A stretch of 27,649 bases of DNA from a virus: positions 1-27,649 of the IMG/VR virus record IMGVR_UViG_3300025122_002258; one strand, 5' to 3'. A program made the position numbers and the translations under genes. Within the stretch, counting starts at the first letter, position 1, and each line of letters starts with the position of its first letter. This document shows, piece by piece, positions 6,188-26,318 of this stretch. The notes beneath the pieces were generated by a model that ran no database searches, was not told the origin of the DNA, and was given only the letters and a program-made list of their open reading frames with translations.

Positions 6188-7081
6188 TTATACACAAGAT
6201 GTGGTGTCTAAGTCAACAGGTCTCTGTCTACCATCATAGTCCTCCGGGTTGTGGGCTTCAAAGTCTCGGAACGATCTCGGGTTCCAATCTTCAGGGAGAT
6301 CGTCTTTAGTCATCTTGCGGGTCCAGATCTCTACACCTCTCGCCGCTTTGGGTGATCCCATGGCTAATAGCTTTTCATAGTTGCCACGGGTCATCATGTC
6401 AGGAGCGTGGCCGTCACGACCTCCCCTGCCATCGCTGAGTGTTTCCATCGGCAGCGCGCCAGAACAGGATCCGCAATATTCCATCACCTGATCTTGGAAA
6501 TCCTCGGGCTCACGCCTCCACCATCCTGGCTTAACCTCGTAGCCGCCGGGATCATCAAACAAATAGTCCTGGGCCGCGGCTATTTCGCAGAAGAAGGCGC
6601 CTTTAGGTGTGATGGCTGCTGACCAGCTTGATTGGAAAGGGCAGTTCTCGATGAGCAACTCTCGTAATTCGTGATCGTCAACCACCTCACTGATTGCGAC
6701 GAGTAGCGGTTGGTGCCGGCCACTCGCTTGGGAGTGGTCATTAAACGCCACACGCTCCCGGTTGAAGGTTTTATGGATGTCAGCTTTATACTCTCCCCAC
6801 TTAAACCCAGCCGTCCAGAACTCCCGCTTCTCTTTGGGAACCATATCCCTCATTAAGGTCAGGATTTCTCGGAACTGTGGGTGGAGTGTTGGTTCTCCAC
6901 CCATGATACCGATCCGACCTGGGAATCCTTCCAATGATTCAACGGCGCGCTTAAAATCTCCGAGCGACATAAAGTATGGCTGACGGTGGTTACCAACGAA
7001 CCTCGTACAGTTTGCACAGTTGAGGTGACAAGCGTTGGTGATGTCGATTTGGATAACCGTGTTTTCATGGATTGCCCTCAT
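6188..7081 (-). CDS. Radical SAM protein inserted between scaffold and capsid genes
   Basis: A 297-residue protein with the radical SAM cluster motif C18-x3-C22-x2-C25 (ACHLNCANC) directly after an I-D-I-T-N strand, and the SAM-binding GGEP motif at about residues 61-64 (GIMGGEPTLHP). These three Cys bind a [4Fe-4S] cluster that cleaves S-adenosylmethionine to a 5'-deoxyadenosyl radical. The second half has further Cys (PFQSSW preceded by Cys, CEIAAA, YCGSCSG) that may bind an auxiliary cluster in a SPASM-like arrangement. The ATG overlaps the scaffold stop as ATGA, so it is part of the late operon. The substrate is unknown; a peptide or sugar modification is possible. Its location inside the head module is unusual. 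The C-terminus is rich in Asp/Arg/Glu. Confidence 0.85.
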   Translation of the reverse strand: MRAIHENTVIQIDITNACHLNCANCTRFVGNHRQPYFMSLGDFKRAVESLEGFPGRIGIMGGEPTLHPQFREILTLMRDMVPKEKREFWTAGFKWGEYKADIHKTFNRERVAFNDHSQASGRHQPLLVAISEVVDDHELRELLIENCPFQSSWSAAITPKGAFFCEIAAAQDYLFDDPGGYEVKPGWWRREPEDFQDQVMEYCGSCSGALPMETLSDGRGGRDGHAPDMMTRGNYEKLLAMGSPKAARGVEIWTRKMTKDDLPEDWNPRSFRDFEAHNPEDYDGRQRPVDLDTTSCV

Positions 7082-10970: not shown

Positions 10971-11423
10971 TCATCTCTCCAAATACATGACCGGACCTTC
11001 TTCCTTAAACCCTGCGCGCTTCATCAATAAGATAAAAGCTCGTTGGTCTCTCTCAGACAGTCCTGCTGTCGCTGTTACAAATACATGGCTCACATCAAAC
11101 ACCGCAAACCACTCCATCATGGCTGACATCAGAGCCCTACTTGTCCTGGCGTCTCGATGCTCTGGCTTCACAAAGAACTTCGAAACATAGCCAAAGGGCC
11201 GTGCCTGGAATTCAGTGGAAGCTACCACCATTACGCCGCCTGTGAGATTGCCTTCATCTTTGCCGATAAGGATATCGTAAGAAGGCTGTTGGACATACAG
11301 TCCGAAGATGTTTCGGCTGTTGTCTTCTGAATACTCTATAGCATAGCCAGATTCATTAATAAAGGTTTCTGCCATCTCTATTAATTCGGGGATGTCGGTC
11401 ATATCCGCTCGACGTATGATCAT
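10971..11423 (-). CDS. GNAT-family N-acetyltransferase
   Basis: A 150-residue protein; the ATG at 11423 overlaps the terminase stop as ATGA and gives the normal GNAT start (MIIRRADMTDIPELIEMA), whereas an upstream in-frame ATG would run deep inside terminase. A central beta strand pattern (GGVMVVASTEF, FGYVSKFFVKPEHRD) leads into the acetyl-CoA-binding loop region R-D-A-R-T-S-R-A-L-M (about residues 90-99; a variant of the R/Q-x-x-G-x-G/A loop), then the V-F-V-T-A-T strand and a G-F-K-E-E-G-P-V-M-Y end typical of the fold. The substrate is not known. Similar GNATs are found beside terminase genes in other podophages, so it need not belong to the sugar pathway. Confidence 0.8.
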   Translation of the reverse strand: MIIRRADMTDIPELIEMAETFINESGYAIEYSEDNSRNIFGLYVQQPSYDILIGKDEGNLTGGVMVVASTEFQARPFGYVSKFFVKPEHRDARTSRALMSAMMEWFAVFDVSHVFVTATAGLSERDQRAFILLMKRAGFKEEGPVMYLER

Positions 11424-13009
11424 CGTCTCTGCCTCTGGCCTCGTTGGGTGCGCTTGGTCATTACTTCTGGCTTGCGATTGCGGGAATGCGTGAACTTGCC
11501 CTGATACAGCCGGCGGTCTCCACCATACCATGACATACAAACAGCATCGCCTTTATCCGTTGATCTACCCAACCGATCAACCACCTTTTCCTTGGGTTCG
11601 ATCTTAATCCCATTGGGTGCTATCTCGAAGGTAGGAGCGGTGAGGTCGGCCAGTAGTTCTGGATCCCGTGGCAATGCAATCGGAGACCCTCCGTCTTGGT
11701 TGGGGTCAAGGGCTTCACGCATCTGCCAGATAGCCTGTGATCTCTTGTTCGTAAAGCCGAGTTGCCGGTCACTAGTCCTAGCTTTGGATTTCTCCGCACC
11801 CTTATAGGGGATGGGGTCAATCCGGTTGTCTTTGAGATGCTCATACATCGATCCTCCGTAGCCGCCACCCATATCAATGATCACCGCGGCATCCTGCCGG
11901 CGATGTGAGACAATAACACCAGCCGAGAACCGGCCGATGGAATCCGTGGGGATGTTTTTAGCAGGGATCTCGATCATTGGTGCAAACCAGCCGTCATGCC
12001 TGATGGCTAAGATCAGTGGATCCTGTCCACCGCCAGATGCATCCACCCCAATCGCACACATCGGAATACCCTGTGGTGGTTCCGGGTTCCACTTGTTCTG
12101 CGCTTCGAGTACCCACGCAGTAGGGATAGCCTGGTTCGCCGTATCCTCACGAGCGGCCATGAAGTTACCATCGCGGTAAGCAGAACGCATGGGCTCTGGC
12201 AGTTGATCCAATCTTTTAGAGTAGTCTGTGTTGATGAGGTACGGATTATCATCGAGTGTGCCATGGATGAAGCTCCTTGAAATCGGGTGATAGTCCTGGC
12301 CGTTCCATGTCTTCACATCATCGGGTCCGTCAACCCACATATCCCTGCCATCAGGATCCGTCAGCACCCAGCGCAGTTCACCTGACTTAGCTGGGTTCGG
12401 GAATGTAATGTCGAGCCATGGTGCAAACATCGGAATGATCCAATAGCCATCGGCGGTGATGGGAGGGTTGGTTGCCATCACAATGCGACACCGCTGACCC
12501 TTGACCGTGGATCTGTTCCAGCCACACAGATACCTGACCTGTTGCTCTAAGAACTGCACGGTCTCATCGAATGCCACGAGGTCGTGAGGTTGGCCCTGCC
12601 AATGCTGCTCATCTCCCATCTTGGCACAGGCGCCGAACTCGATCAGTTGATCCTCTCTGCCGGTCGGCCGCATCGTCATCGGGTGAGATCCTGAGTAGCC
12701 GTCACGAGATCCATTGATCTCAATGGCGCGCTCAGTCATCGCTCCCATATCAGTGTACTGCCGGCGCATGATCAGAGATCTGAGGTGAGCCTCGAAGGCC
12801 AGCCCCAGGATTAGATCAGTCTTACCCGGACCAGCTTGACCACCATACAACAGTTCGACGGCCTCGCTCTCGAATGCCTCGTGTTGTGGTCCCGGTGTTG
12901 GTTGCCACTTGAGATGCTTGGTCCTCTCCCGCCGCTGGGTCCGAATAGCGTCCTTGGTTTCGGCCGGCAGGGTTGTCAGTTCATCTAATGTGTCTTGAAG
13001 ATCACTCAT
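11420..13009 (-). CDS. terL: Terminase large subunit
   Basis: A 529-residue packaging motor. The ATG at 13009 (MSDLQDTLDE) overlaps the upstream stop by eight bases and is preferred over an extension to 13084. Walker A is GGQAGPGKT at about residues 56-64, Walker B is LVAFDE at 144-149, and a coupling motif follows (IVMATNPP, 176-183). The C-terminal nuclease domain begins at AIGVDASGGGQDP (about 319-331), with D323 as the first metal-binding Asp, and continues with VIIDMGGGYG (about 372-381) carrying the second acidic position. Length and motif order are normal. TerL would bind the portal, cut concatemers and pump DNA using ATP. The cognate small subunit is probably the 136-residue gene 12.8 kb upstream. 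Confidence 0.95.
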   Translation of the reverse strand: MSDLQDTLDELTTLPAETKDAIRTQRRERTKHLKWQPTPGPQHEAFESEAVELLYGGQAGPGKTDLILGLAFEAHLRSLIMRRQYTDMGAMTERAIEINGSRDGYSGSHPMTMRPTGREDQLIEFGACAKMGDEQHWQGQPHDLVAFDETVQFLEQQVRYLCGWNRSTVKGQRCRIVMATNPPITADGYWIIPMFAPWLDITFPNPAKSGELRWVLTDPDGRDMWVDGPDDVKTWNGQDYHPISRSFIHGTLDDNPYLINTDYSKRLDQLPEPMRSAYRDGNFMAAREDTANQAIPTAWVLEAQNKWNPEPPQGIPMCAIGVDASGGGQDPLILAIRHDGWFAPMIEIPAKNIPTDSIGRFSAGVIVSHRRQDAAVIIDMGGGYGGSMYEHLKDNRIDPIPYKGAEKSKARTSDRQLGFTNKRSQAIWQMREALDPNQDGGSPIALPRDPELLADLTAPTFEIAPNGIKIEPKEKVVDRLGRSTDKGDAVCMSWYGGDRRLYQGKFTHSRNRKPEVMTKRTQRGQRQRR

Positions 13010-16636: not shown

Positions 16637-17284
16637 TCACAATAATTTAGCTTCTGGCATCGCCATCTCTTTTAGCTCCACCACATCCTGGCGCATTTGT
16701 TTCAGGTCAACGTAGTGTGATAAGCCGGTAAAGGGTTTCACGCCGTTGATCCTGGCATAGACCTCCCACTCTCCTGCCCACATCCAAGCCCTGAGAATAA
16801 CCCTGCATGAATCACACCCCGGCGCCCTTAGAAAGTTCTTCTCATATTTCTCATCAAACTTAAAGTTTTTATCAGGCACCACATGACCAAGTGAAATCAT
16901 ATCCACATCTTCCGGGTATGCTCTCGGCAGCGTGTCACCTCTGTCACTCTCCGCTGGTTTCATGTGCTTCAACAAATTAATAGGACCGCTCCAGACTGTA
17001 CCACGGGTTGCCATACCATACGGTCCAGCCATCAGGTCCATACCACCACCGTCTCCACGCCGGCTGTCATCAGCCATGAATATTTCAGTTAGAAAGTAGC
17101 AGCACCAAGCAAACTCATTAAGTGTACCGATGAAGTTATTGAAGAAGTTTTGGATCTCTCTACTGTCGGTATCGCCATAGACATTGCCGCTGGTATATGC
17201 GGTCTTGGGGTTGGCCCGTTCCCACGCGAGTTTCCGACACATCTCAAAGTCTTTATCCTTGATTATCTTACTTGGACTTTTCAC
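16637..17284 (-). CDS. Unknown protein, possible PD-(D/E)XK nuclease-like fold
   Basis: A 215-residue protein starting at a GTG (17284) seven bases after GAGGAGG and overlapping the synthase gene by 17 bases; an upstream TTG start would have no better signal. I do not recognise the family. The layout helix with a Glu (about residues 55-68, GTLNEFAWCCYFL), then G-D-G-G-G-M-D-L (about 78-85), a Lys-containing segment (INLLKHMKP), a hydrophobic D-V-D-M-I-S-L-G-H-V-V strand and a late R-A-W-M-W-A-G-E-W, is reminiscent of phage PD-(D/E)XK-type proteins with a GDGGxD motif. This is a fold-level impression only. There are four Cys; the pair CDSC near the C-terminus is not part of a clear zinc site. 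Confidence 0.5.
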   Translation of the reverse strand: MKSPSKIIKDKDFEMCRKLAWERANPKTAYTSGNVYGDTDSREIQNFFNNFIGTLNEFAWCCYFLTEIFMADDSRRGDGGGMDLMAGPYGMATRGTVWSGPINLLKHMKPAESDRGDTLPRAYPEDVDMISLGHVVPDKNFKFDEKYEKNFLRAPGCDSCRVILRAWMWAGEWEVYARINGVKPFTGLSHYVDLKQMRQDVVELKEMAMPEAKLL

Positions 17285-18089
17285 GGTGGCGCCTCCTCTC
17301 GGTGACAATCTCGATCACCTCTTTTTCACTCTCCCGTGGTCCCAGCTTACCATCACCCATGGCTACCTCCAGTTGCCTGACGATGTCCACCATGAATGCG
17401 AACTCCATCGGCATTAGTGAGGCACAATGATCTGGTCCAACCCAGTTACGATCCAGGGTGATGTGTTTTTCGATGACCACTGCACCCATTGACACGGCGA
17501 TGACCGGCCAAACTACTGAGAGAGAGTGGTCAGAGAAACCTACGCTGTAGCCAAAGCCGTCGAGGGTCTTGATGGTTTGGAGGTTTACGTCTTCATCGGG
17601 GGTTGGATAAGCCGAGGTGCAGTGCATCAGGGTGAGGCGTTTAGTTTCTTCCATGTGTTTATCCATAATGAGAACAGCATCATAAACCCTCTCGTAGTTT
17701 GCCATGCCGGTGGAGAGTATCACAACACACCCGCTCTCGGCGGCGGCGATGAGGAGATGGGTGTTGTCTATGTCTCCCGATGAGATCTTGAGCGTCTTGA
17801 CTTTTAAGTCATCCACGAGGAATCTCAAAGATCCTACATCAAAGGGTGTGCAGATATACTCAATGCCTACCACCCGGCAGTGTGCCTTCAGATCGAAGTG
17901 ATATTCACGGCTGAGGGCTAGCTGCTCAAGGGTGATGCACCTATCAATGTCTGGTTCCAATAGTACAGGGTCATAGAGCTGGAACTTTACGGCATCGGCA
18001 CCACACTCCTTGGCCACATCGATCATCTCAGTGGCATAGGCTGGTGAGCCTTGGTGGTTTACACCTACCTCTGCGATGATGTAGGTCAT
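17268..18089 (-). CDS. legI: Nonulosonate synthase (legionaminate/N-acetylneuraminate synthase), no SAF domain
   Basis: A 273-residue TIM-barrel enzyme of the NeuB/LegI family that condenses PEP with a 2,4-diacetamido-trideoxymannose (or ManNAc) to give the nine-carbon acid. The ATG at 18089 overlaps the upstream stop as ATGA. Family motifs are all present: E-V-G-V-N-H-Q-G (7-14), K-F-Q (35-37), C-T-P-F-D (80-84), K-I-S-S-G-D (101-106), S-T-G-M-A (126-130), H-C-T-S-A-Y-P-T-P (156-164), G-F-S-D-H-S (184-189), E-K-H (207-209) and G-P-D-H (218-221). The protein ends about where the linker to the C-terminal SAF (antifreeze-like) domain would start; usual length is about 335-350. In family structures the SAF domain of one subunit caps the active site of its partner, so this form is minimal. 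Confidence 0.93.
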   Translation of the reverse strand: MTYIIAEVGVNHQGSPAYATEMIDVAKECGADAVKFQLYDPVLLEPDIDRCITLEQLALSREYHFDLKAHCRVVGIEYICTPFDVGSLRFLVDDLKVKTLKISSGDIDNTHLLIAAAESGCVVILSTGMANYERVYDAVLIMDKHMEETKRLTLMHCTSAYPTPDEDVNLQTIKTLDGFGYSVGFSDHSLSVVWPVIAVSMGAVVIEKHITLDRNWVGPDHCASLMPMEFAFMVDIVRQLEVAMGDGKLGPRESEKEVIEIVTERRRHREKSK

Positions 18090-18580
18090 GGCCAAAACTT
18101 TCTGTGGCAAAAAGGACATTCAGTGGCTGGCGAGTATCCAGTGGCTGGCGGGTATCCGTAGTCATCCAGTTGTTTATACATACTCTTCACAGACACCTTC
18201 CCCATATTTGGAACCCGTAGCCAGTAGGCTTCTTCGTAGTTATTTATTTCATCTAAAAACTGAACACCCTCATTCCTTAAACAGTTGACCAGTCTCGTGC
18301 CGTGCAAAACCCAAACTGGTAGCCGCTGCCCCCAGTGGTCTCTTAAATACAGCCACCTATCTTGCGCTTTCTCATATCTCCTCCCAACCCTTTCCACTTG
18401 AGAACGGGATAAGCCATACTCTTTCATTAACTCAGAAACCTTGGCCCCTGTAGACAAAGCCACCCCAATGGTGAGGTTTCTCTCGTAACTCGGTTGCCAG
18501 CGAAACCCTGTTGCACCCCAGACCCACTCGCTAAACTTCATCAACCTGATCGAATGGTCCCTCGTAGTCAACTCTTTCAT
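18086..18580 (-). CDS. Putative regulator: helix-turn-helix plus RNA polymerase alpha-CTD-like domain
   Basis: A 164-residue protein (ATG at 18580 chosen: ATGA overlap with legG, AGGAAG nine bases upstream; an ATG three codons earlier is the alternative). Residues about 37-72 look like a helix-turn-helix (ALSTGAKVSELMKEYGLSRS then QVERVGRRYEKA). Residues about 91-143 closely follow the pattern of the alpha-subunit C-terminal domain of bacterial RNA polymerase: L-x-T-R-x-x-N-C-L-R-N-E-G-V, a short helix, then L-R-V-P-N-M-G-K-V-S-V-K-S and L-D-D-Y-G-Y. This helix-hairpin-helix unit binds UP-element DNA and activators in RNA polymerase. A tandem hexapeptide (GYPPAT, GYSPAT) and a CPFC pair end the protein. 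It may modulate host transcription or the phage operon; that is inference. Local GC is about 42% at 18,181-18,300 by hand count, below the neighbours. Confidence 0.65.
   Translation of the reverse strand: MKELTTRDHSIRLMKFSEWVWGATGFRWQPSYERNLTIGVALSTGAKVSELMKEYGLSRSQVERVGRRYEKAQDRWLYLRDHWGQRLPVWVLHGTRLVNCLRNEGVQFLDEINNYEEAYWLRVPNMGKVSVKSMYKQLDDYGYPPATGYSPATECPFCHRKFWP
18121..18156. repeat. Tandem 18-bp repeat, 2 copies
   Basis: Two adjacent 18-bp units differ at a single base and encode GYSPAT and GYPPAT near the C-terminus of the helix-turn-helix/alpha-CTD-like protein. This is a recent in-frame duplication. Confidence 0.9.
18545..18571. repeat. 27-bp direct repeat, copy A (in the regulator gene)
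   Basis: Identical to bases 18675-18701, 130 bp away, in the same orientation. Here it encodes about residues 3-12 of the 164-residue protein (L-T-T-R-D-H-S-I-R). The flanking bases differ on both sides. Confidence 0.95.
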
Positions 18581-19602
18581 ATGTGCCATGGCTTCCTCAA
18601 TATGTCTGTGTTATCGAGATCTTGATTGACGATGATATCAGCTATTCTCTTGCTGGCGCCGAAGTCCCCAAACTCCTGATCGAATGGTCCCTCGTAGTCA
18701 ATTGCTCCCATGATGGCCTCTGAGATCTGGAACTGATTAGCACCAACACTCCAGATGGATTCACCCATCGGCCGGCCGTCCTGCCTGTCTCCAATGTTCA
18801 CGGTCGGAACCCGGAGATATGGCGCCTCAATAATCCCAGAGGATGAGTTTCCTATCACGGCGGTGGCGTGACGGCAGTGCCACAGATATTCACCCAGACC
18901 CCACTCGACTTCTTCGCCCACACCGGAGGTTTCGATCATATGTTTAATGACATCACTCTCTGGGTCATTGTTCACGCCGGTCCAATAGACAGTATAATCA
19001 GGGTAGTTCTTCAGCGCCTCGATCATTGCCTGTATGCCGTCGAGATTACCCAAGGTCTCAGGGTGATAGGTGCAGACAAAATACCTCTCTGGTTTTCTGT
19101 CCCCTAAGAAAGGCGTGAGGTTGTCTAGTCCTGGCGCGCCGGTCACATGGATATTTCTCTCCCCCATCTTTCTGAGGGTTTGGCCAAAGTCCTCATTCGC
19201 TACGCAGTGGATGTGTGAAAGTTTCGATATGGCGTGGCGCATATTGTCATCCATCGCACCAATGGTTCGCTCTCCTCCATGGATGTGGCAGATGGGAATG
19301 CGACTACAGGCGGCGGCGGCTGCTGCACAGAGGGTCTCCCATCTGTCGCCGAGTAGAACCACAAGGTCTATCTCTTGGTTTTTGATGTGGTTAGTGGTCG
19401 CCTGAAATACATAAGCACCACCCCACCTCTCATTGGTAGTCATCACCCTCACCCGACACCTCTTCTCCAGTTCCTCAATAACCGGCGTTAAGGGTGACCC
19501 GTCTGCCCTTCCTGACGTAACGACAAGACAGCGTCGATCACTTTTGTCTGCTGTTCGTCCGTCAGGGAAGTCGATGACGGCAGCATTACTACTCTGTTCC
19601 AT
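18577..19602 (-). CDS. legG: Hydrolysing UDP/GDP-N-acetylhexosamine 2-epimerase, LegG/NeuC type
   Basis: A 341-residue enzyme of the NeuC/LegG family, which inverts C2 and hydrolyses the nucleotide from a sugar-nucleotide, releasing the 2,4-diacetamido-trideoxymannose (LegG) or ManNAc (NeuC). Motifs: V-V-T-S-G-R-A-D-G (27-35, variant of T-G-T-R-A-D-Y-G), L-G-D-R-W-E (84-89), H-I-H-G-G-E (106-111), T-G-A-P-G-L-D (154-160), T-Y-H-P-E-T (178-183), G-N-S-S-S-G-I-I-E-A-P (251-261) and G-D-R-Q-D-G-R (271-277). No ATG, GTG or TTG occurs between the ATG at 19602 and the first conserved strand, so the gene must overlap the aminotransferase by 115 bases, unusual for this operon. The dehydratase and aminotransferase beside it favour LegG over NeuC. 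Confidence 0.9.
   Translation of the reverse strand: MEQSSNAAVIDFPDGRTADKSDRRCLVVTSGRADGSPLTPVIEELEKRCRVRVMTTNERWGGAYVFQATTNHIKNQEIDLVVLLGDRWETLCAAAAAACSRIPICHIHGGERTIGAMDDNMRHAISKLSHIHCVANEDFGQTLRKMGERNIHVTGAPGLDNLTPFLGDRKPERYFVCTYHPETLGNLDGIQAMIEALKNYPDYTVYWTGVNNDPESDVIKHMIETSGVGEEVEWGLGEYLWHCRHATAVIGNSSSGIIEAPYLRVPTVNIGDRQDGRPMGESIWSVGANQFQISEAIMGAIDYEGPFDQEFGDFGASKRIADIIVNQDLDNTDILRKPWHI
18675..18701. repeat. 27-bp direct repeat, copy B (in legG)
   Basis: Identical to 18545-18571. Here it encodes D-Y-E-G-P-F-D-Q in the epimerase, a family-typical region near the C-terminus, so this copy is probably the source. The two copies are read in different frames. Confidence 0.95.
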
Positions 19603-20477
19603 ATCTTTTCTGTAACCTCCAAGTTTCCCCGAGGGCAATCTTTCCATGGTGCCTGTAGGTGAAGTGGTTCCCAAAATCCAGCAGCACCGATACCCAGCTC
19701 GTTGAGTTTATGAATGTGGTTCATCGCTTCATGCGTTTGGTATCCTGAGATCCAACAAGCCGAACCCTCACTGTGAGGGACAGGATCATAAGGCAGTTCT
19801 TCTTTATACCGCTGAGAAATGCCACGCTTTTTCTTTACGAACTCATCCAGCCTGGACATCTGCGCCACACCGATGGCAGCATTCACATTTGGCATGGCGT
19901 AGTTAAATCCCTTGGAATGATAGTTGTAGTTGCCGGCATTGGCGTGACCCATCAGACCCCTGATCTTATGTTCCCGCTCAATGTTGTCTCCAACTATCGC
20001 CCCTCCTCCTCCGGTGGTTATTGTCTTGTTGCCGTTGAAAGAGAGACACGCCAGCTTATATTTCCCTCCCACCTCTCCGCTGCCTATTGAACAAGCGGCA
20101 TCGACCAAAGTGCCACGGGCATAGTTACCGAAAGTCTCCACCACTAAATCCGAACCCGCGTGATCAGCAACCCAAGTTTCCGGGTCTACATCACTGAAGG
20201 ATATTTCTGCCCCAACCATAGCCACGGCATTGGCAGTAGCGGCGAATGTATAGCTTGGCATATAAACCCCATCAGTCCAGCCCAAGACGGACAAGGCAAG
20301 GTGGAGCGCCGAAGTTCCGCTACAGGTCGCTACGCACCATGCCCGTCCCGTGGCCGAGGCCACAAGCTCTTCAAATTCTTTTACATATTTACCCTGACAG
20401 GGTTCATTATCCATGATAGCTCGAGAAACCAATTGCTCCTCATAAGATCCCATGTTCGGCACCAACAACGGTATCAT
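19488..20477 (-). CDS. legC: PLP-dependent sugar aminotransferase, LegC type (DegT/DnrJ/EryC1)
   Basis: A 329-residue aminotransferase. C-S-G-T-S-A-L-H-L-A-L (52-62) is the phosphate-binding segment, D126 in L-V-D-A-A-C-S binds the pyridine nitrogen, and K151 in S-F-N-G-N-K-T-I-T-T-G-G-G-G is the PLP Schiff-base lysine. The F-N-G-N-K form of the Lys motif is characteristic of LegC-like enzymes, which aminate the 4-keto-6-deoxy sugar made by LegB using glutamate. Length is somewhat below the family norm (about 370-385), with shortened internal loops. It overlaps legB as ATGA and legG by 115 bases. The acetyltransferase gene for the next step lies 4 kb downstream. Confidence 0.92.
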   Translation of the reverse strand: MIPLLVPNMGSYEEQLVSRAIMDNEPCQGKYVKEFEELVASATGRAWCVATCSGTSALHLALSVLGWTDGVYMPSYTFAATANAVAMVGAEISFSDVDPETWVADHAGSDLVVETFGNYARGTLVDAACSIGSGEVGGKYKLACLSFNGNKTITTGGGGAIVGDNIEREHKIRGLMGHANAGNYNYHSKGFNYAMPNVNAAIGVAQMSRLDEFVKKKRGISQRYKEELPYDPVPHSEGSACWISGYQTHEAMNHIHKLNELGIGAAGFWEPLHLQAPWKDCPRGNLEVTEKIWNRVVMLPSSTSLTDEQQTKVIDAVLSLRQEGQTGHP

Positions 20478-21439
20478 ATCCTATACTTGACCTCTCCCTT
20501 TAGATCTCCTATGTATTTTTTCCACCACTTCAGGGTTAGCTCGAGCCCCTCAGTGAGTGAAGTCTTTGGCTCCCACTGAGTAGCCTCCTTGATTTTCTTG
20601 GTGCCGGCCACCAGATCCATAACGTCATTGGTTCTTTTTCGATCTGATGTTGAGATGATATTCTTTCTCTCACCAACCAGCTTGTTGGCCAGCGCACCTA
20701 TCGAAATACTCTCGCCGGCTCCACAGTTATAGACCTCTCCCAACTTGCCGCTCATCATCGAGGCAAAGGCCATGACGGTATCATCTACATATGTCAGGTC
20801 GCGGCGTGGCGTGAGATCGCCGAGGTTGATCCGAGTGCATTGAGGGTCAAGCAGTTGTCTGATGATCGCTGGAATAACGGCGCGCTCAGATTGGCGGGGT
20901 CCGTAAGTATTGAAAGGTCGGAGCGTAATGACCGGGGTGTTAAAACTTTCGAAGAAGGACCGAGCGACTGCATCACCTCCGACCTTCGACGCGGCATAGG
21001 GAGACTGAGGAAATATTCGATGGTCTTCATGGATTGGGACCTCCTGCGCGGTGCCGTATACCTCAGACGTTGAGGTGTTGATAATCCTCTCTGCATCTCT
21101 GCCGGCGTGTAGCACATTCATCGTGCCGTTGACGTTGGTCTCCAGATAGGACCGTGGTGCCTGAGATGAGTGCGGCACAGACATCAGCGCAGCCAGATGA
21201 AAGATTACTTGTTCACCTTTCAACAGGTCTCGAAGTTGCTCTGGATCTCTAACGTCTCCATGTACACACTTCATGTCATGTCTGATAGGGCTGTCATCGA
21301 GCCAGCCAAACGATGACCAGCTATTATATTGTGCCATGGCAGTAACGTGCGCGCCCCCCTCAGTGAGTAGTCCAGCAAGGTAAGACCCGATGAAGCCTTC
21401 CGCTCCTGTGATAAAAACTTTAATGCCGTTCCAGTTCAT
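20474..21439 (-). CDS. legB: NAD-dependent sugar-nucleotide 4,6-dehydratase, LegB type
   Basis: A 321-residue extended SDR. T-G-A-E-G-F-I-G-S (11-19) is the NAD-binding glycine motif, S-T-S-E-V-Y-G (123-129) and Y-A-A-S-K (148-152) give the catalytic Ser/Glu and Tyr/Lys, and G-D-V-R-D (61-65) binds the adenine. The segment Y-N-S-W-S-S-F-G-W-L (38-47) is a close match to the Y-N-S-x-x-x-x-G-W-L signature of LegB-type dehydratases, which act on GDP-GlcNAc (or UDP-GlcNAc) in legionaminic acid and bacillosamine-like pathways. It makes the 4-keto-6-deoxy intermediate used by LegC, encoded next. The gene overlaps the HisF-like gene by 20 bases. Confidence 0.93.
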   Translation of the reverse strand: MNWNGIKVFITGAEGFIGSYLAGLLTEGGAHVTAMAQYNSWSSFGWLDDSPIRHDMKCVHGDVRDPEQLRDLLKGEQVIFHLAALMSVPHSSQAPRSYLETNVNGTMNVLHAGRDAERIINTSTSEVYGTAQEVPIHEDHRIFPQSPYAASKVGGDAVARSFFESFNTPVITLRPFNTYGPRQSERAVIPAIIRQLLDPQCTRINLGDLTPRRDLTYVDDTVMAFASMMSGKLGEVYNCGAGESISIGALANKLVGERKNIISTSDRKRTNDVMDLVAGTKKIKEATQWEPKTSLTEGLELTLKWWKKYIGDLKGEVKYRI

Positions 21440-22184
21440 CCCTCACCTCTTGGCCGGCCGCATTCGCCGCCATCCTGATTTGATCCAACCCCACAGTTTC
21501 GTAGTGCAGGACATGAGCCATCGCCACGCCGTCTGCACCATAGTCGAACGCTTCCACCACATCCTTACTTTCTCCCACACCTCCTCCGTAGATGATGGGG
21601 ACGGTTGAGGAGGAGATGCCTTCAAGAAGTCGGCTATCAATTCCTTTTGTTGTTCCTTCACATCCGACAGATGTGACAAGTATTTCTCCAGCGCCTCGAC
21701 GGATTCCTTCAGCCGCCCAACTAACTGCATCAATTCCTGACGGGTCTCTTCCACCGTCTGTCCACGCTTCGTAGCCACTGTCTTTCTCCTTCGCATCAAT
21801 CTGCAATACTATCGATTGAGATCCAAACTTGTTTGCCAACTCCGTTATAAGGTCTGGTCTTTTGACTGCTGCCGTATTGAGGGCCACCTTGTCTGCACCA
21901 GATCGAAGCAATAGTTGAGCATCTTCCACACTACGAACCCCGCCACCAACAGTGAGAGGGCAGAATATGCCAGCACTGGTACGATCAACCAGATCACATA
22001 GAGAATTACGACCATAGAGACTAGCAACGATATCCAGGTAAATGATCTCATCGATTCCATCTTGGTCGTATTTTTCCGCTCGTTCATACGGATCCCCCAG
22101 TTTCCTCAGTCCCTCCAATCGAACCGTCTTGACTAGGTTGGGTGCTTTTATATCGAGCCGTGCAATTAGTCTCTTCTTTAACAT
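21420..22184 (-). CDS. hisF2: HisF2-like cyclase/synthase subunit for sugar amidination
   Basis: A 254-residue TIM-barrel protein of the HisF family. The ATG at 22184 gives the normal start M-L-K-K-R-L-I, and places the two catalytic aspartates of HisF exactly: D11 (A-R-L-D-I-K) and D130 (L-Q-I-D-A-K-E). T-V-G-G-G-V-R (78-84) and Y-G-G-G-V are the phosphate-binding loops. In histidine synthesis HisF works with HisH; HisF2 paralogues beside WbpG/PseA-type amidotransferases channel ammonia for converting an acetamido group to acetamidino on surface sugars. Here it directly follows such an amidotransferase (101-base overlap), which supports the sugar role. No other histidine gene is present, and no HisH-type glutaminase is encoded in the window. 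Confidence 0.85.
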   Translation of the reverse strand: MLKKRLIARLDIKAPNLVKTVRLEGLRKLGDPYERAEKYDQDGIDEIIYLDIVASLYGRNSLCDLVDRTSAGIFCPLTVGGGVRSVEDAQLLLRSGADKVALNTAAVKRPDLITELANKFGSQSIVLQIDAKEKDSGYEAWTDGGRDPSGIDAVSWAAEGIRRGAGEILVTSVGCEGTTKGIDSRLLEGISSSTVPIIYGGGVGESKDVVEAFDYGADGVAMAHVLHYETVGLDQIRMAANAAGQEVRDELERH

Positions 22185-23433
22185 TCTCCACCTTGTGTTT
22201 GAGTTCCCAGGCACCCGTCTTTTGGTTGTAGTCCCACAGATGACTGGGTCTGAACCTGTTGCAGACGGTTTCAAAGTGAAACTCATCACACCCCACATAG
22301 GGGAGAAACTCTTCCAAACAATTTATGGGGTATTCCCCATCGTATTTCCGAACAAGCGCGACAGCCTCTTCGCGTGTGATTTCTCCGTCTCGGATCTCAT
22401 GTGCGGCGTCAGAGGTGCATCGGCCCATGCCGAATTTGAGAAAGCTGAAGAAGTAGTGCGGGTCATCCAGCGCATCATCGAGCGATGCATACTTTGAATA
22501 GGTGCCGGTTGATCTACCGGCGGGGTTGCCTTCAAAGCCTGTGTGTTCGGATGCATAATAATAGTTCTCCTGTGGGTGCCACTTCCGGTAATAACCAAAC
22601 CAGTGATATTCTGGGAGGGTCTCGACTATCGGTTGGGAATAAAAGCATGTTGCCTCAACCAACTCGCTCAGGGAGAAGCAGCCCAACTCATAGCCGAGGT
22701 CGAGAAGTTTCCGCGCTCCTCCACCTTTTAGATAGACACGCTCCCAATCATCGAAGTCCCACCCCGGCTTATTGTTAGCTGATGGATCACCACCATATTC
22801 TGCTTCTTGGTTTTCCCCACCAAAGATCAGGTTAATACCATGGTGCTTGGCGATGTGCAGGGGATAGTAAAGTTGACCCCAGACAAAGGGCAGGAACGGA
22901 TCACCGATGAACTCCATCGACAACCGAGCCAGCTTCCGGTGAATGATGCCGCCGGGGAAGCCCATCTGTACATCAAACCCTGAGTGAATGAACGACTGCA
23001 TATTCTTCCAACCGATGTCGGTGTGTTTGAACGGCGCCCACGTAACACAGAGCGGGTTCATGCCATGCTCATGCTTGAGCCGGTGGGCAATCATTGAGGC
23101 ATCCTTGCCCCCGGAACAGGGGACGACCACATCGTAGCCGCGCGCTGACCCGTGTTGCTGAAGGAACAGATCCTCCCCACCCAGACGGTGCTTGGCGGTG
23201 AGGTGTCCTAACTCCACCGCCCGTGCCAGCCAATCTATTGTCCCGTCAGTCTTGGTTTCTGCATACCGACAGGCCGAGCAGACGCCCTCATCATCAAAGA
23301 CTATGCGCGGTCGCTGGTTGCTGAGAACACACCGCTTGCAGAAGACCACCTCGGTTGGTGTGGTTTGCTCATCAAGGCTGTGTGCCTCGGCTCTTACTCT
23401 CTGCTCTACTTCATCTGACCATAGTTCAATCAT
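22084..23433 (-). CDS. N-acetyl-sugar amidotransferase (WbpG/PseA family)
   Basis: A 449-residue ATP-dependent amidotransferase. N-terminal Cys pairs C32-x2-C35 and C52-x2-C55 (F-C-K-R-C and G-V-C-S-A-C) form the zinc site characteristic of the family, and S-G-G-K-D-A-S (107-113) is the PP-loop that adenylates the substrate. These enzymes turn an N-acetyl group into an acetamidino group on nonulosonic acids or uronic-acid derivatives, with ammonia supplied through HisF/HisH2. Length is slightly above the family norm (about 370-400) because of a C-terminal Ser/Thr/Gly tail. The ATG overlaps the zinc-protein gene by eight bases with AAGGA upstream. The likely product modification is Leg5Am-type, but the exact position cannot be read from sequence. 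Confidence 0.88.
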   Translation of the reverse strand: MIELWSDEVEQRVRAEAHSLDEQTTPTEVVFCKRCVLSNQRPRIVFDDEGVCSACRYAETKTDGTIDWLARAVELGHLTAKHRLGGEDLFLQQHGSARGYDVVVPCSGGKDASMIAHRLKHEHGMNPLCVTWAPFKHTDIGWKNMQSFIHSGFDVQMGFPGGIIHRKLARLSMEFIGDPFLPFVWGQLYYPLHIAKHHGINLIFGGENQEAEYGGDPSANNKPGWDFDDWERVYLKGGGARKLLDLGYELGCFSLSELVEATCFYSQPIVETLPEYHWFGYYRKWHPQENYYYASEHTGFEGNPAGRSTGTYSKYASLDDALDDPHYFFSFLKFGMGRCTSDAAHEIRDGEITREEAVALVRKYDGEYPINCLEEFLPYVGCDEFHFETVCNRFRPSHLWDYNQKTGAWELKHKVENVKEETNCTARYKSTQPSQDGSIGGTEETGGSV

Positions 23434-23638
23434 TGTAAATCCTTGGCACGAGTTCACCGTCGAGCGGCACGACCGTCTCCTCATCACAGGCCACGCAGTG
23501 AAGGACGGATAGAATGTTGGGTTTCTCCGCTTGCGTCATCCTGACAAGACCATAGAATATTTCACCACCACAAATACAGGTGGCGAGGCCATCAGCCTTC
23601 ATGTGTCGGGCAAGTCTTCCGGGTTTGAATTCAGCCAT
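23426..23638 (-). CDS. Small Cys-containing (zinc-ribbon-like) protein
   Basis: A 70-residue protein coupled by eight-base overlaps to genes on both sides. It has two Cys pairs, C-I-C in A-T-C-I-C-G-G and C-V-A-C in L-H-C-V-A-C-D, spaced about 25 residues apart, fitting a small zinc ribbon. The rest is unremarkable. Its place between a radical SAM/SPASM enzyme and the amidotransferase suggests that it serves one of them, but nothing more can be said. Confidence 0.65.
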   Translation of the reverse strand: MAEFKPGRLARHMKADGLATCICGGEIFYGLVRMTQAEKPNILSVLHCVACDEETVVPLDGELVPRIYND

Positions 23639-24569
23639 CGGTCAACTTCATGTAGTCAAAGCAGCTATTACATAAAGGCATAGTATAATCTTCCTCCGAT
23701 AACCTTTTGCGATAGGACACAATAGTCATCTCTTTCCAGATGTCCTTCAGATCAAACTGATTGATGTTACCGAGATTTGTGGTGCCATTGTAGTCGTTGC
23801 AACAGACCCGCGCCGTGCCGTCAAATGAGATGGCCAGCTTGTCGAACACTTCCGGGCAGGGATTGAAGTGCTTCTTCTCCACCGTCTGGCGCGCGGCCAG
23901 ATCCTCTGGAACGTCATCCATAAAATCAAAGGTGGTGTGGCCGACAGAAAGTTGATCGCAGAACGGCGAGAACTTTCTCTTGAATACCTCGATGGTTGAT
24001 GGGTGTTCGTCCGTCACCGTGGTGGACACTGAGATGAAGGGCTTGGGATGTACACCCCGGCGCCTGTGAAACTTCCGCACGGCATTAAAGAGATCGTCAT
24101 AAAAATCAATCGACCTCATCTCTGCATAGGTCTCACGGGTTGAACCCTGCAATGAGAACTTGATGGAATCCAAACCCATGTTGATCAGCATCTGCTGCTC
24201 ATAGTCTCCAATCTTGGATCCGTTGGTGTTGAGGTGGGTGGGTAGGAGGGCATCGGTGGCCCTCCTCAAGAACCGGAACACTTGGGGGTGCATCATTGGC
24301 TCTCCCCACCCGACGAACCGTAGCCCAATGACCTGGGATGCACACTGCTCTACGATCCGATCAAACGTCTCCCAAGACATAAATCCTGCCGGCCTGTCCA
24401 ATGAAAGATTGCCGACCGGACACATCCTACACCTGAAATTACAGGTGCTGGTCAACTCAACATCGATGTGTGTAGGATATTCTGGAAGCTCTGCGTACTT
24501 CGAGGCGTTGTTGCCTCGGGCAGCTTCTTCATACATCCATTGAAAGGGGTTCTTCGCGGAACTCATCAT
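23631..24569 (-). CDS. Radical SAM/SPASM protein in the sugar island
   Basis: A 312-residue protein. C43-x3-C47-x2-C50 (T-C-N-F-R-C-R-M-C) binds the radical SAM cluster, and W-G-E-P at about 88-91 is the SAM-binding motif. A C-terminal SPASM region is indicated by F-N-P-C-P, V-C-C-N-D and M-P-L-C-N-S-C, consistent with one auxiliary cluster. Such proteins often act on peptides or sugars and are found in polysaccharide clusters next to amidotransferases. The substrate here cannot be inferred, though it is probably carbohydrate or sugar-linked. The start is ATG at 24569 (another at 24566); no strong ribosome binding site precedes it, and a small hairpin sits just upstream. Confidence 0.85.
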   Translation of the reverse strand: MMSSAKNPFQWMYEEAARGNNASKYAELPEYPTHIDVELTSTCNFRCRMCPVGNLSLDRPAGFMSWETFDRIVEQCASQVIGLRFVGWGEPMMHPQVFRFLRRATDALLPTHLNTNGSKIGDYEQQMLINMGLDSIKFSLQGSTRETYAEMRSIDFYDDLFNAVRKFHRRRGVHPKPFISVSTTVTDEHPSTIEVFKRKFSPFCDQLSVGHTTFDFMDDVPEDLAARQTVEKKHFNPCPEVFDKLAISFDGTARVCCNDYNGTTNLGNINQFDLKDIWKEMTIVSYRKRLSEEDYTMPLCNSCFDYMKLTDG

Positions 24570-24587
24570 TGTGTGATTTTACACACG
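24570..24587 (-). other. Short palindrome between legF and the radical SAM gene
   Basis: GTGTG and CACAC arms flank a TAAAAT-type loop; the structure contains the legF stop codon and lies next to the radical SAM start, where no clear ribosome binding site is present. It could affect coupling between the two genes. Biological relevance is uncertain. Confidence 0.3.
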
Positions 24588-25142
24588 ATTCTCTTCAAAA
24601 ATCAACTGTGCTTTTTCAAAGTCCTCGAGGGTATCAATGTCCACAGATCTAGCCGCCGGCATTGGTACAAGCTTGGTGTCCTGTGTGTCCCAGTTGCCGC
24701 CGTCTTCCAGCCACTGGGTGGTGCCACAATACACCGCACCATTGGGAACTGTCTTGCCTACCTCCGCGGTTGCTGCCGGCACACTCATTGTTTGGTGAGT
24801 GTTAAAACAGTGATCTATGTCATCTGAGATTCGCAAGGGTGATGTTGGTTGGAGTAAAACCACACTGCCTTGCAGATTTCCGATGGCGTGTTTCAATGCA
24901 GCATATGAGGTGGCGGTGTCAGTGGATAAATACGGAGGACGGAGCAGCGCCACCGCTCCATGCTCATTAGCCAACTCAAGAACGTCATGGTCATCAGAAG
25001 AGACGATGATCTCATCGATGTATCGAGATCTCTGAGCTTCGAGGATTGACCAGACCACCATCGGCCGGCCGGCGATAAGCTTTTTGTTTTTGCCGGGAAG
25101 CCGCTTGGATCCCGCACGAGCCAGGATGACACCAACGATCAC
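24579..25142 (-). CDS. legF: CMP-nonulosonate (legionaminate) cytidylyltransferase
   Basis: A 187-residue member of the NeuA/LegF family that activates the nine-carbon acid with CTP. It starts at GTG (25142) after GGAGGA, overlapping the previous stop as GTGA. R-A-G-S-K-R-L-P-G-K-N (9-19) is the nucleotide-binding loop, S-S-D-D (48-51) the metal site, L-Q-P-T-S-P-L-R (96-103) the CTP/sugar-binding segment, and S-V-D-I-D-T-L-E-D-F (165-174) the conserved C-terminal Asp motif. The protein is about 40 residues shorter than typical LegF/NeuA (about 220-230), with shortened loops before the C-terminal motif; all key motifs remain. Confidence 0.9.
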   Translation of the reverse strand: MIVGVILARAGSKRLPGKNKKLIAGRPMVVWSILEAQRSRYIDEIIVSSDDHDVLELANEHGAVALLRPPYLSTDTATSYAALKHAIGNLQGSVVLLQPTSPLRISDDIDHCFNTHQTMSVPAATAEVGKTVPNGAVYCGTTQWLEDGGNWDTQDTKLVPMPAARSVDIDTLEDFEKAQLIFEENRV

Positions 25143-25795
25143 ATCTTTCCTCCGGCAGCTTCATATGTCTCGAAGGTTCCGATGTCCTGCCAGTGACCTG
25201 AGATGTAATAGGCCGAGACGTTGTCCAACCCAAGTAAGAGGTCTGGCATATCGATGGGTTGGGGTGGCACTTGCACCAGCGCAGATGGTGAGATGACATT
25301 GATGCCGGCCGACACCGGATAATTCTTAATGGGTTTCTCATCGATGCTGGTCATGTGTCCGTTCTCGATCTCGACCACACCGTACTCGACCTGGTGCTGG
25401 TAGAGTGCGAGGCACATCGTGGCGTCAGCCTCTGCCATGGTGTGGTGTTTTACGAGATCTTTGTAATCAAGCTTCGCCTGGATGTCAGCATTGCAGACAA
25501 TGACGGGCTCATCGTCAGGCACATAGTAAAGAGCGCCGGCAGTACCCAACGGTTCAGCCTCATCAATATAATCAATGTCACATCCGAAGTTGGATCCATC
25601 ACTGAGATAGTCTTTAATCAGTTCGCCGAGATAGTGAACTGAAATTATGAAGTCTGTGAAATCCTGACTAATGAATTCCTCGATGACCTCTTGGATCATT
25701 GGCTTTGCGCCAACCTCCAATAAAGGCTTGGGTGCATTCTCAGTTAAAGGGTGCAGCCGCTGGCCCCTGCCGCCAGCCATGATGACTACTCGCAT
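25139..25795 (-). CDS. ptmE: Sugar-1-phosphate nucleotidyltransferase, PtmE-like
   Basis: A 218-residue GT-A nucleotidyltransferase. M-A-G-G-R-G-Q-R-L-H-P-L-T (6-18) then P-K-P-L-L-E-V-G-A-K-P (22-32) form the activation and phosphate loops, and C-N-A-D (metal-binding D) is at about 95-98. The later Y-G-V-V-E-I-x-x-G ... D-E-K-P and the end G-H-W-Q-D-I-G-T-F-E-T-Y-E resemble PtmE, the enzyme that makes GDP-GlcN or GDP-GlcNAc for the legionaminic pathway. Campylobacter PtmE carries CBS domains that are absent here. A mannose- or glucose-1-phosphate specificity cannot be excluded, but the neighbours favour PtmE. The ATG overlaps the upstream stop as TAATG. Confidence 0.78.
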   Translation of the reverse strand: MRVVIMAGGRGQRLHPLTENAPKPLLEVGAKPMIQEVIEEFISQDFTDFIISVHYLGELIKDYLSDGSNFGCDIDYIDEAEPLGTAGALYYVPDDEPVIVCNADIQAKLDYKDLVKHHTMAEADATMCLALYQHQVEYGVVEIENGHMTSIDEKPIKNYPVSAGINVISPSALVQVPPQPIDMPDLLLGLDNVSAYYISGHWQDIGTFETYEAAGGKM

Positions 25796-26205: not shown

Positions 26206-26223
26206 AATACCCTCCTAAAAAAG

Positions 26224-26238
26224 TTGCGTCTGATGCAA
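26224..26238. promoter_or_regulatory. Operator-like palindrome 1
   Basis: TTGCGTCTGATGCAA is an imperfect palindrome (TTGCRT, 3-base centre, ATGCAA) lying upstream of the plus-strand promoter and 19 bases upstream of the late-operon start GTG. It is a near copy of palindrome 2, 23 bp away centre to centre (about two helical turns). Confidence 0.55.
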
Positions 26239-26246
26239 ATTAACTG

Positions 26247-26261
26247 TTGCATCATATGCAA
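26247..26261. promoter_or_regulatory. Operator-like palindrome 2 overlapping the -35
   Basis: TTGCATCATATGCAA has perfect six-base arms and a CAT centre. It covers the -35 and part of the spacer, so a bound protein would block the promoter. The outer arms of palindromes 1 and 2 (TGATGCAA at 26231-26238 and TTGCATCA at 26247-26254) also form an exact 8-bp inverted repeat. Confidence 0.6.
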
Positions 26262-26275
26262 TGGTGTGCTATACT
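26247..26275 (+). promoter_or_regulatory. Sigma70-type extended -10 promoter for the small plus-strand genes
   Basis: A -10 hexamer TATACT (26270-26275) preceded by TGC (extended -10) lies 17 bp after TTGCAT (26247-26252), giving canonical spacing. The -35 is only a partial match (three of six), so the extended -10 probably compensates. The start point would be about 26282, giving a leader of some 37 bases with GGAG and AAGGA before the first ATG. Confidence 0.65.
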
Positions 26276-26318
26276 ACTTAAACTTGATAACACATAAACC
26301 ACTTTTGGAGAAGGAATA

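Follow-up and report, generated by a model that had tools for sequence, protein, structure and literature searches.

The C-terminal domain of the RNA polymerase alpha subunit (alpha-CTD) naturally contacts region 4 of sigma as well as activators. For the Escherichia coli domain, we take the DNA-contact surface, or 265 determinant, to comprise R265, N268, C269, G296, K298, S299 and E302, and the acidic residues touching sigma region 4 to be D258, D259 and E261. Phage proteins with a detached alpha-CTD have already been named in BFVD and in one paper, and the open literature that we searched contained no functional study of such a protein. The Rac protein of phage phiKMV represents an independent phage strategy, by which the host alpha-CTD is disabled (PMC7552054).

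Here, we analyzed a virus record from IMG/VR, 27,649 bases long and referred to in full as the window, whose late genes are podovirus-like and encode tail proteins, the major head protein, a head-tail adaptor and terminase. As listed in Table 1, a small gene for a protein with a helix-turn-helix (HTH) and an alpha-CTD lies in a nonulosonic acid operon, with NeuC upstream and NeuB downstream, which agrees with the setting between epimerase and synthase genes given in a preliminary description of this DNA. Judged by family matches, the stretch from 17268 to 25795 appears to encode a near-complete pathway of the legionaminic acid type, along with WbuX and HisF as an amidation pair and an enzyme of the radical SAM/SPASM kind; most family scores fall under the NCBI equivalog cut-offs, which makes the exact sugar tentative. 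A phage-borne pathway of this kind is a likely surface-sugar modifier. Elsewhere in the window, a radical SAM gene (6188-7081) is located between scaffold-like and major head protein genes.

Table 1. Coordinates of features in the window
Feature	Position	Strand	Remarks
GNAT gene	10971-11540		Between terminase and head-tail adaptor; adjacent to the portal gene, like LUZ19 gp28 (Rac)
NeuB/LegI-type synthase	17268-18089	-	From MTYIIAEVGVNHQG; PF03102 1e-68; TIGR03569 7.8e-83, under cut-off; downstream
HTH + alpha-CTD-like gene	18086-18589	-	ATGA overlap with NeuC; TGA overlaps NeuB ATG
CPFC + H162	18107-18118 (CPFC)	-	Residues 158-161; low-confidence C-terminal tail
18-bp near-perfect tandem repeat	18118-18153	-	Codes YPPATG/YSPATE, just before CPFC
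Alpha-CTD-like domain	18137-18331	-	Residues 87-151
PF03118 match	18164-18298	-	Residues 98-142 of the HTH + alpha-CTD protein
Helix-turn-helix	18368-18493	-	Residues 33-74; AF2 models and sub-threshold Pfam
27-bp exact direct repeat, copy 1	18545-18571	-	Codons 7-15 of the HTH gene
NeuC/LegG-type UDP-N-acetylglucosamine 2-epimerase	18577-19674	-	PF02350 2.8e-54; TIGR03568 4e-67, just under cut-off; upstream
27-bp exact direct repeat, copy 2	18675-18701	-	Inside NeuC 3' end
LegC	19488-20477	-	Nonulosonic acid operon (rest: 19488-25795)
LegB	20474-21439	-	Nonulosonic acid operon
HisF/WbuZ	21420-22298	-	Nonulosonic acid operon
WbuX amidotransferase	22084-23487	-	Nonulosonic acid operon
Radical SAM/SPASM	23631-24569	-	Nonulosonic acid operon
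CMP-transferase	24579-25142	-	Nonulosonic acid operon
NTP transferase (PtmE-like)	25139-25795	-	Nonulosonic acid operon
Candidate operator at operon head	26223-26261		Two palindromic 16-mers 23 bp apart

Read from its first ATG (M1), the gene encodes 167 aa. An alternative start, M4, is present at the fourth codon (18580) and yields a product of 164 aa; the ORF claimed earlier, 18086-18580, is present and corresponds to this second start, which from the gene arrangement is likely the true one. The ATG of M4 overlaps the stop codon of the upstream NeuC gene as ATGA, and the TGA of the gene overlaps the NeuB ATG at 18089. This embedding, with ATGA overlaps at both gene ends, suggests that the gene is translationally coupled to the flanking sugar genes.

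The alpha-CTD pattern reported in the preliminary description was borne out. The T-R-x-x-N-C-L and P-N-M-G-K-x-S motifs are found at residues 98-104 and 127-133 (M1 numbering), respectively, and in a Pfam scan PF03118 (RNA_pol_A_CTD) scored 26.4 bits, above its curated cut-off of 23.8. With a profile HMM built from other phages' alpha-CTDs, from which the window sequence and its sister copy were both absent, the protein scored 42.9 bits, whereas the top score among 5000 shuffles was 8.6 bits and the runner-up ORF in the window reached 4.5 bits. The PDB sequence matches listed for the protein were all RNA polymerase alpha subunits (best E = 1e-4). AlphaFold modelled the alpha-CTD part with a pLDDT of about 90, and a fold search with this prediction returned RNA polymerase alpha subunits in all of rows 1-29 (Z 10.9-9.1), with E. 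coli alpha-CTD structures at Z 10.2-10.9 and RAD51/Dmc1 helix-hairpin-helix domains at Z 8.9 and lower; the input alignment of the model consisted of alpha-CTDs and favours that fold, whereas the sequence tests are free of this bias. With RpoA-CTD ranking first in both sequence and fold, and with the majority of its minor-groove contact residues retained, a reading of the region as an unrelated helix-hairpin-helix fails, and the alpha-CTD domain in this protein is real.

The DNA-contact surface is largely retained, as R99, N102, C103, G130 and S133 are the equivalents of R265, N268, C269, G296 and S299, respectively, but K298 is replaced by V132 and E302 by S136. The acidic residues D258, D259 and E261 have no acidic counterparts, and the stretch at this place reads LPVWVLHG. 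Pfam detected no match to the alpha-NTD, the RpoA assembly domain, in the 167-aa protein, and the NCBIfam rpoA models matched it solely at their C-terminal end and far below cut-off. These results weaken the earlier suggestion that the protein might recruit polymerase. Such a protein would bind upstream of a phage promoter through its HTH, and its alpha-CTD-like domain would draw in RNA polymerase via sigma region 4 or host activators, in keeping with the natural contacts of alpha-CTD and with the acidic residues that some other phage copies retain at D259/E261. Since both the alpha-NTD for assembly into RNA polymerase and the sigma-contact residues are missing here, recruitment is poorly supported, and we consider it quite improbable.

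In front of the alpha-CTD, two AF2 models contain a three-helix HTH core (helices 33-46, 51-58 and 62-74, or longer). The second model, whose beta strands are less certain, has a pLDDT of about 92 over residues 51-70. Sequence scores for this part were below threshold in Pfam: HTH_28, HTH_29 and HTH_23 gave 18.9, 18.6 and 16.6 bits against cut-offs of 25, 28.1 and 24.6, the best match being HTH_28 with E = 0.0016. Its fold matches were weak and mostly to HTH or winged-helix proteins. The HTH described earlier is thus upheld as a core modelled twice, and the CPFC pair described behind the alpha-CTD was likewise located, in a disordered tail with pLDDT under 50 whose only potential zinc ligands are C158, C161 and H162; a zinc-binding CxxC domain would have four ligands in an ordered fold. 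Two other phage alpha-CTD proteins (L025 2604-3098 and L054 5705-6328) also end in CxxC (CREC, CQSC).

The 27-bp exact repeat ties the 5' end of the gene to the 3' end of NeuC, with the two copies read in different frames, and thereby keeps alive the reading that the gene is a passenger, or a mobile-gene remnant such as the DNA-binding portion of a homing-endonuclease-like insertion, at the epimerase-synthase junction and with no regulatory role. The 18-bp tandem repeat at the 3' end, a weak HNH-family match (E = 0.065) and the lack of the gene in a related phage with an analogous island would fit such an origin. However, the ORF is intact and has ATGA coupling at both ends, domain searches found no nuclease domain, and the G+C content of 48% lies near the bottom of the neighbours' range while the GC3 of 54% is within it; we regard a passenger as unlikely. 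A recent foreign origin was also considered and finds no support in this composition.

At the corresponding place in its genome, the related phage, whose terminase is 55% identical, has a pseudaminic-type island with PseB, PseC, PseF, a PseA-like protein, HisF, a GNAT and PseI (L006 1-4972, L073 1338-3073), and PF03118 had no match within its record. Hence, an island of this kind does not require the alpha-CTD gene. This result, together with the gene neighbourhoods of other phage copies described below, weakens the proposal that the protein might coordinate the island. The sugar type seems to be swapped among related phages, between legionaminic and pseudaminic types.

The HTH + alpha-CTD gene recurs in one sister contig, which is nearly identical. 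A scan of genome contigs gave no close homologues beyond this sister, and full-length tblastn against annotated phages gave no match at E 0.01. The alpha-CTD part alone matched Ruegeria phage V16 and, in phage-labelled records, chromosomal rpoA. Across 398 genomes from a single phylum, the HTH part gave one match, which had internal stops and was taken as chance. The negative results in these collections are weak evidence of absence.

We searched viral contigs for other phage alpha-CTDs with a DNA pattern coding for N-C-L, 67 bases, and P-N-x-G-K-x-S. This yielded 60 stretches, compared to 1 in a control with the spacing shifted by one base. About 57 of the 58 in-frame ORFs were short phage proteins and none was a full RpoA; one ORF (L049) looked like a chance pattern match and was dropped. 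PF03118 matched all of the scanned pattern-derived proteins (35/35). The R265 position, which the pattern does not demand, was arginine in 43/43 phage copies covering it (44 distinct copies), whereas N268, C269, N294, G296 and K297 are fixed by the pattern and hence uninformative. Partner domains included sigma region 4 (L050), Arc/RHH (L020), an HTH-like stretch (L024) and pyrophosphatase. The recognisable gene neighbours were mostly for replication, recombination or packaging (DNA polymerase A, nucleases, annealing proteins, small terminase and others); no sugar-nucleotide synthesis families were among the 25 commonest per library, with many neighbours unmatched. The pattern count and the existing database names show that detached alpha-CTD phage proteins are a known, uncharacterised and common kind, to which the window protein belongs as an ordinary member in an unusual context.

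We propose, with a probability of roughly 60%, that the HTH + alpha-CTD protein acts as a regulator with two DNA-binding parts, encoded by the phage. Its HTH would recognise one specific site through the major groove, and the alpha-CTD-like domain, with no RNA polymerase assembly domain attached, would grip neighbouring DNA, probably AT-rich, by the minor groove. Made along with the sugar enzymes via translational coupling, the regulator would most likely tune transcription from the operon or from a different promoter of phage or host, and would do so by occupying promoter-proximal DNA, not by joining RNA polymerase. The domains, most contact residues and the overlaps are observed in the sequence; DNA binding, its target and the sign of regulation are inferred. 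Several results argue for this regulator: PF03118 is above its cut-off, the alpha-CTD fold ranks first, the R265 equivalent is invariant among the phage copies, the HTH is confidently modelled, and ATGA overlaps flank the gene on both sides. Moreover, other phages join alpha-CTD to other DNA-binding domains, and the sigma-contact positions that are acidic in E. coli differ from one phage copy to the next and are non-acidic here. Against it count the lost K298/E302 equivalents, the ability of helix-hairpin-helix folds of this type to bind protein as well, and the lack of a close homologue outside the one sister contig.

The largely retained DNA-contact surface would also suit a decoy or mimic that competes with the host alpha-CTD for UP elements, as the preliminary description suggested, or for host activators and represses host promoters, and phiKMV Rac is a precedent for an independent phage strategy against the host alpha-CTD (PMC7552054). 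Yet a competitor that is soluble and of low affinity would have to be present in many copies, the gene belongs to a biosynthetic operon with late genes alongside, the K298 and E302 equivalents are lost, and the HTH points to a specific site and not to a general decoy, all of which makes this role doubtful.

A candidate operator, for this regulator or for another protein, is present at the head of the operon, within the divergent promoter region 26206-26318. Its palindromic 16-mers have the cores TTGCGTCTGATGCAA and TTGCATCATATGCAA and lie beside an extended -10-like TGCTATACT; they are kept in the sister phage, and similarity to the sister contig ends at 26321. A scan for consensus promoters and terminators found sites no more numerous than in shuffles. 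The GNAT of the window, positioned like Rac, did not match Rac significantly in a direct sequence comparison (E 0.4) and its best PHROG differs; Rac-like GNATs at this genome place need not cut alpha, as in phage LKA1 (PMC7552054), and we treat a Rac role as a lead. A far-fetched extension would be that phages widely deploy detached alpha-CTDs as interchangeable promoter-DNA grips, with the window protein as an HTH-guided substitute for the host alpha-CTD, perhaps where the Rac-positioned GNAT disables the host's own. Detached alpha-CTDs are common in phages, have varied DNA-binding partners and always kept the R265 equivalent in our sample. The window protein is a compact test case, and its two domains, one HTH and one alpha-CTD, with a candidate operator heading the same operon, make a possible phage use of the polymerase's DNA grip as a regulator part directly testable.

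Among known proteins, A0A6J5MNY7, A0A2P1JY10 of Rhodococcus phage Finch and ORF 40 of Erythrobacter phage vB_EliS-L02 are likewise phage proteins with a detached alpha-CTD, but their partner domains differ from that of the window protein. In gp23 of Ruegeria phage vB_RpoS-V16, the alpha-CTD is 33% identical to ours over 49 residues but is N-terminal and is followed by a probably pyrophosphatase-like part, in agreement with the RefSeq label. The closest alpha-CTD found, with about 40% identity, is that of the L024/L076 protein (275 aa, beside DNA polymerase A), in which an HTH-like stretch, read by eye and without Pfam significance, directly precedes the alpha-CTD as in the window protein; it differs in its long N-terminal region, its replication context and its lack of a CPFC tail. 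The HTH part is weakly similar in fold to Mor-type activators of phage Mu (1rr7, besides further Mor matches), although the sequence similarity is not significant and Mor lacks an alpha-CTD. With RNA polymerase alpha-CTD itself, the window protein shares the sequence family, the fold (Z 10-11) and most of the 265 determinant, and it differs from the alpha subunit in having no alpha-NTD, in the loss of the K298/E302 equivalents and the sigma-contact acids, and in the HTH placed in front.
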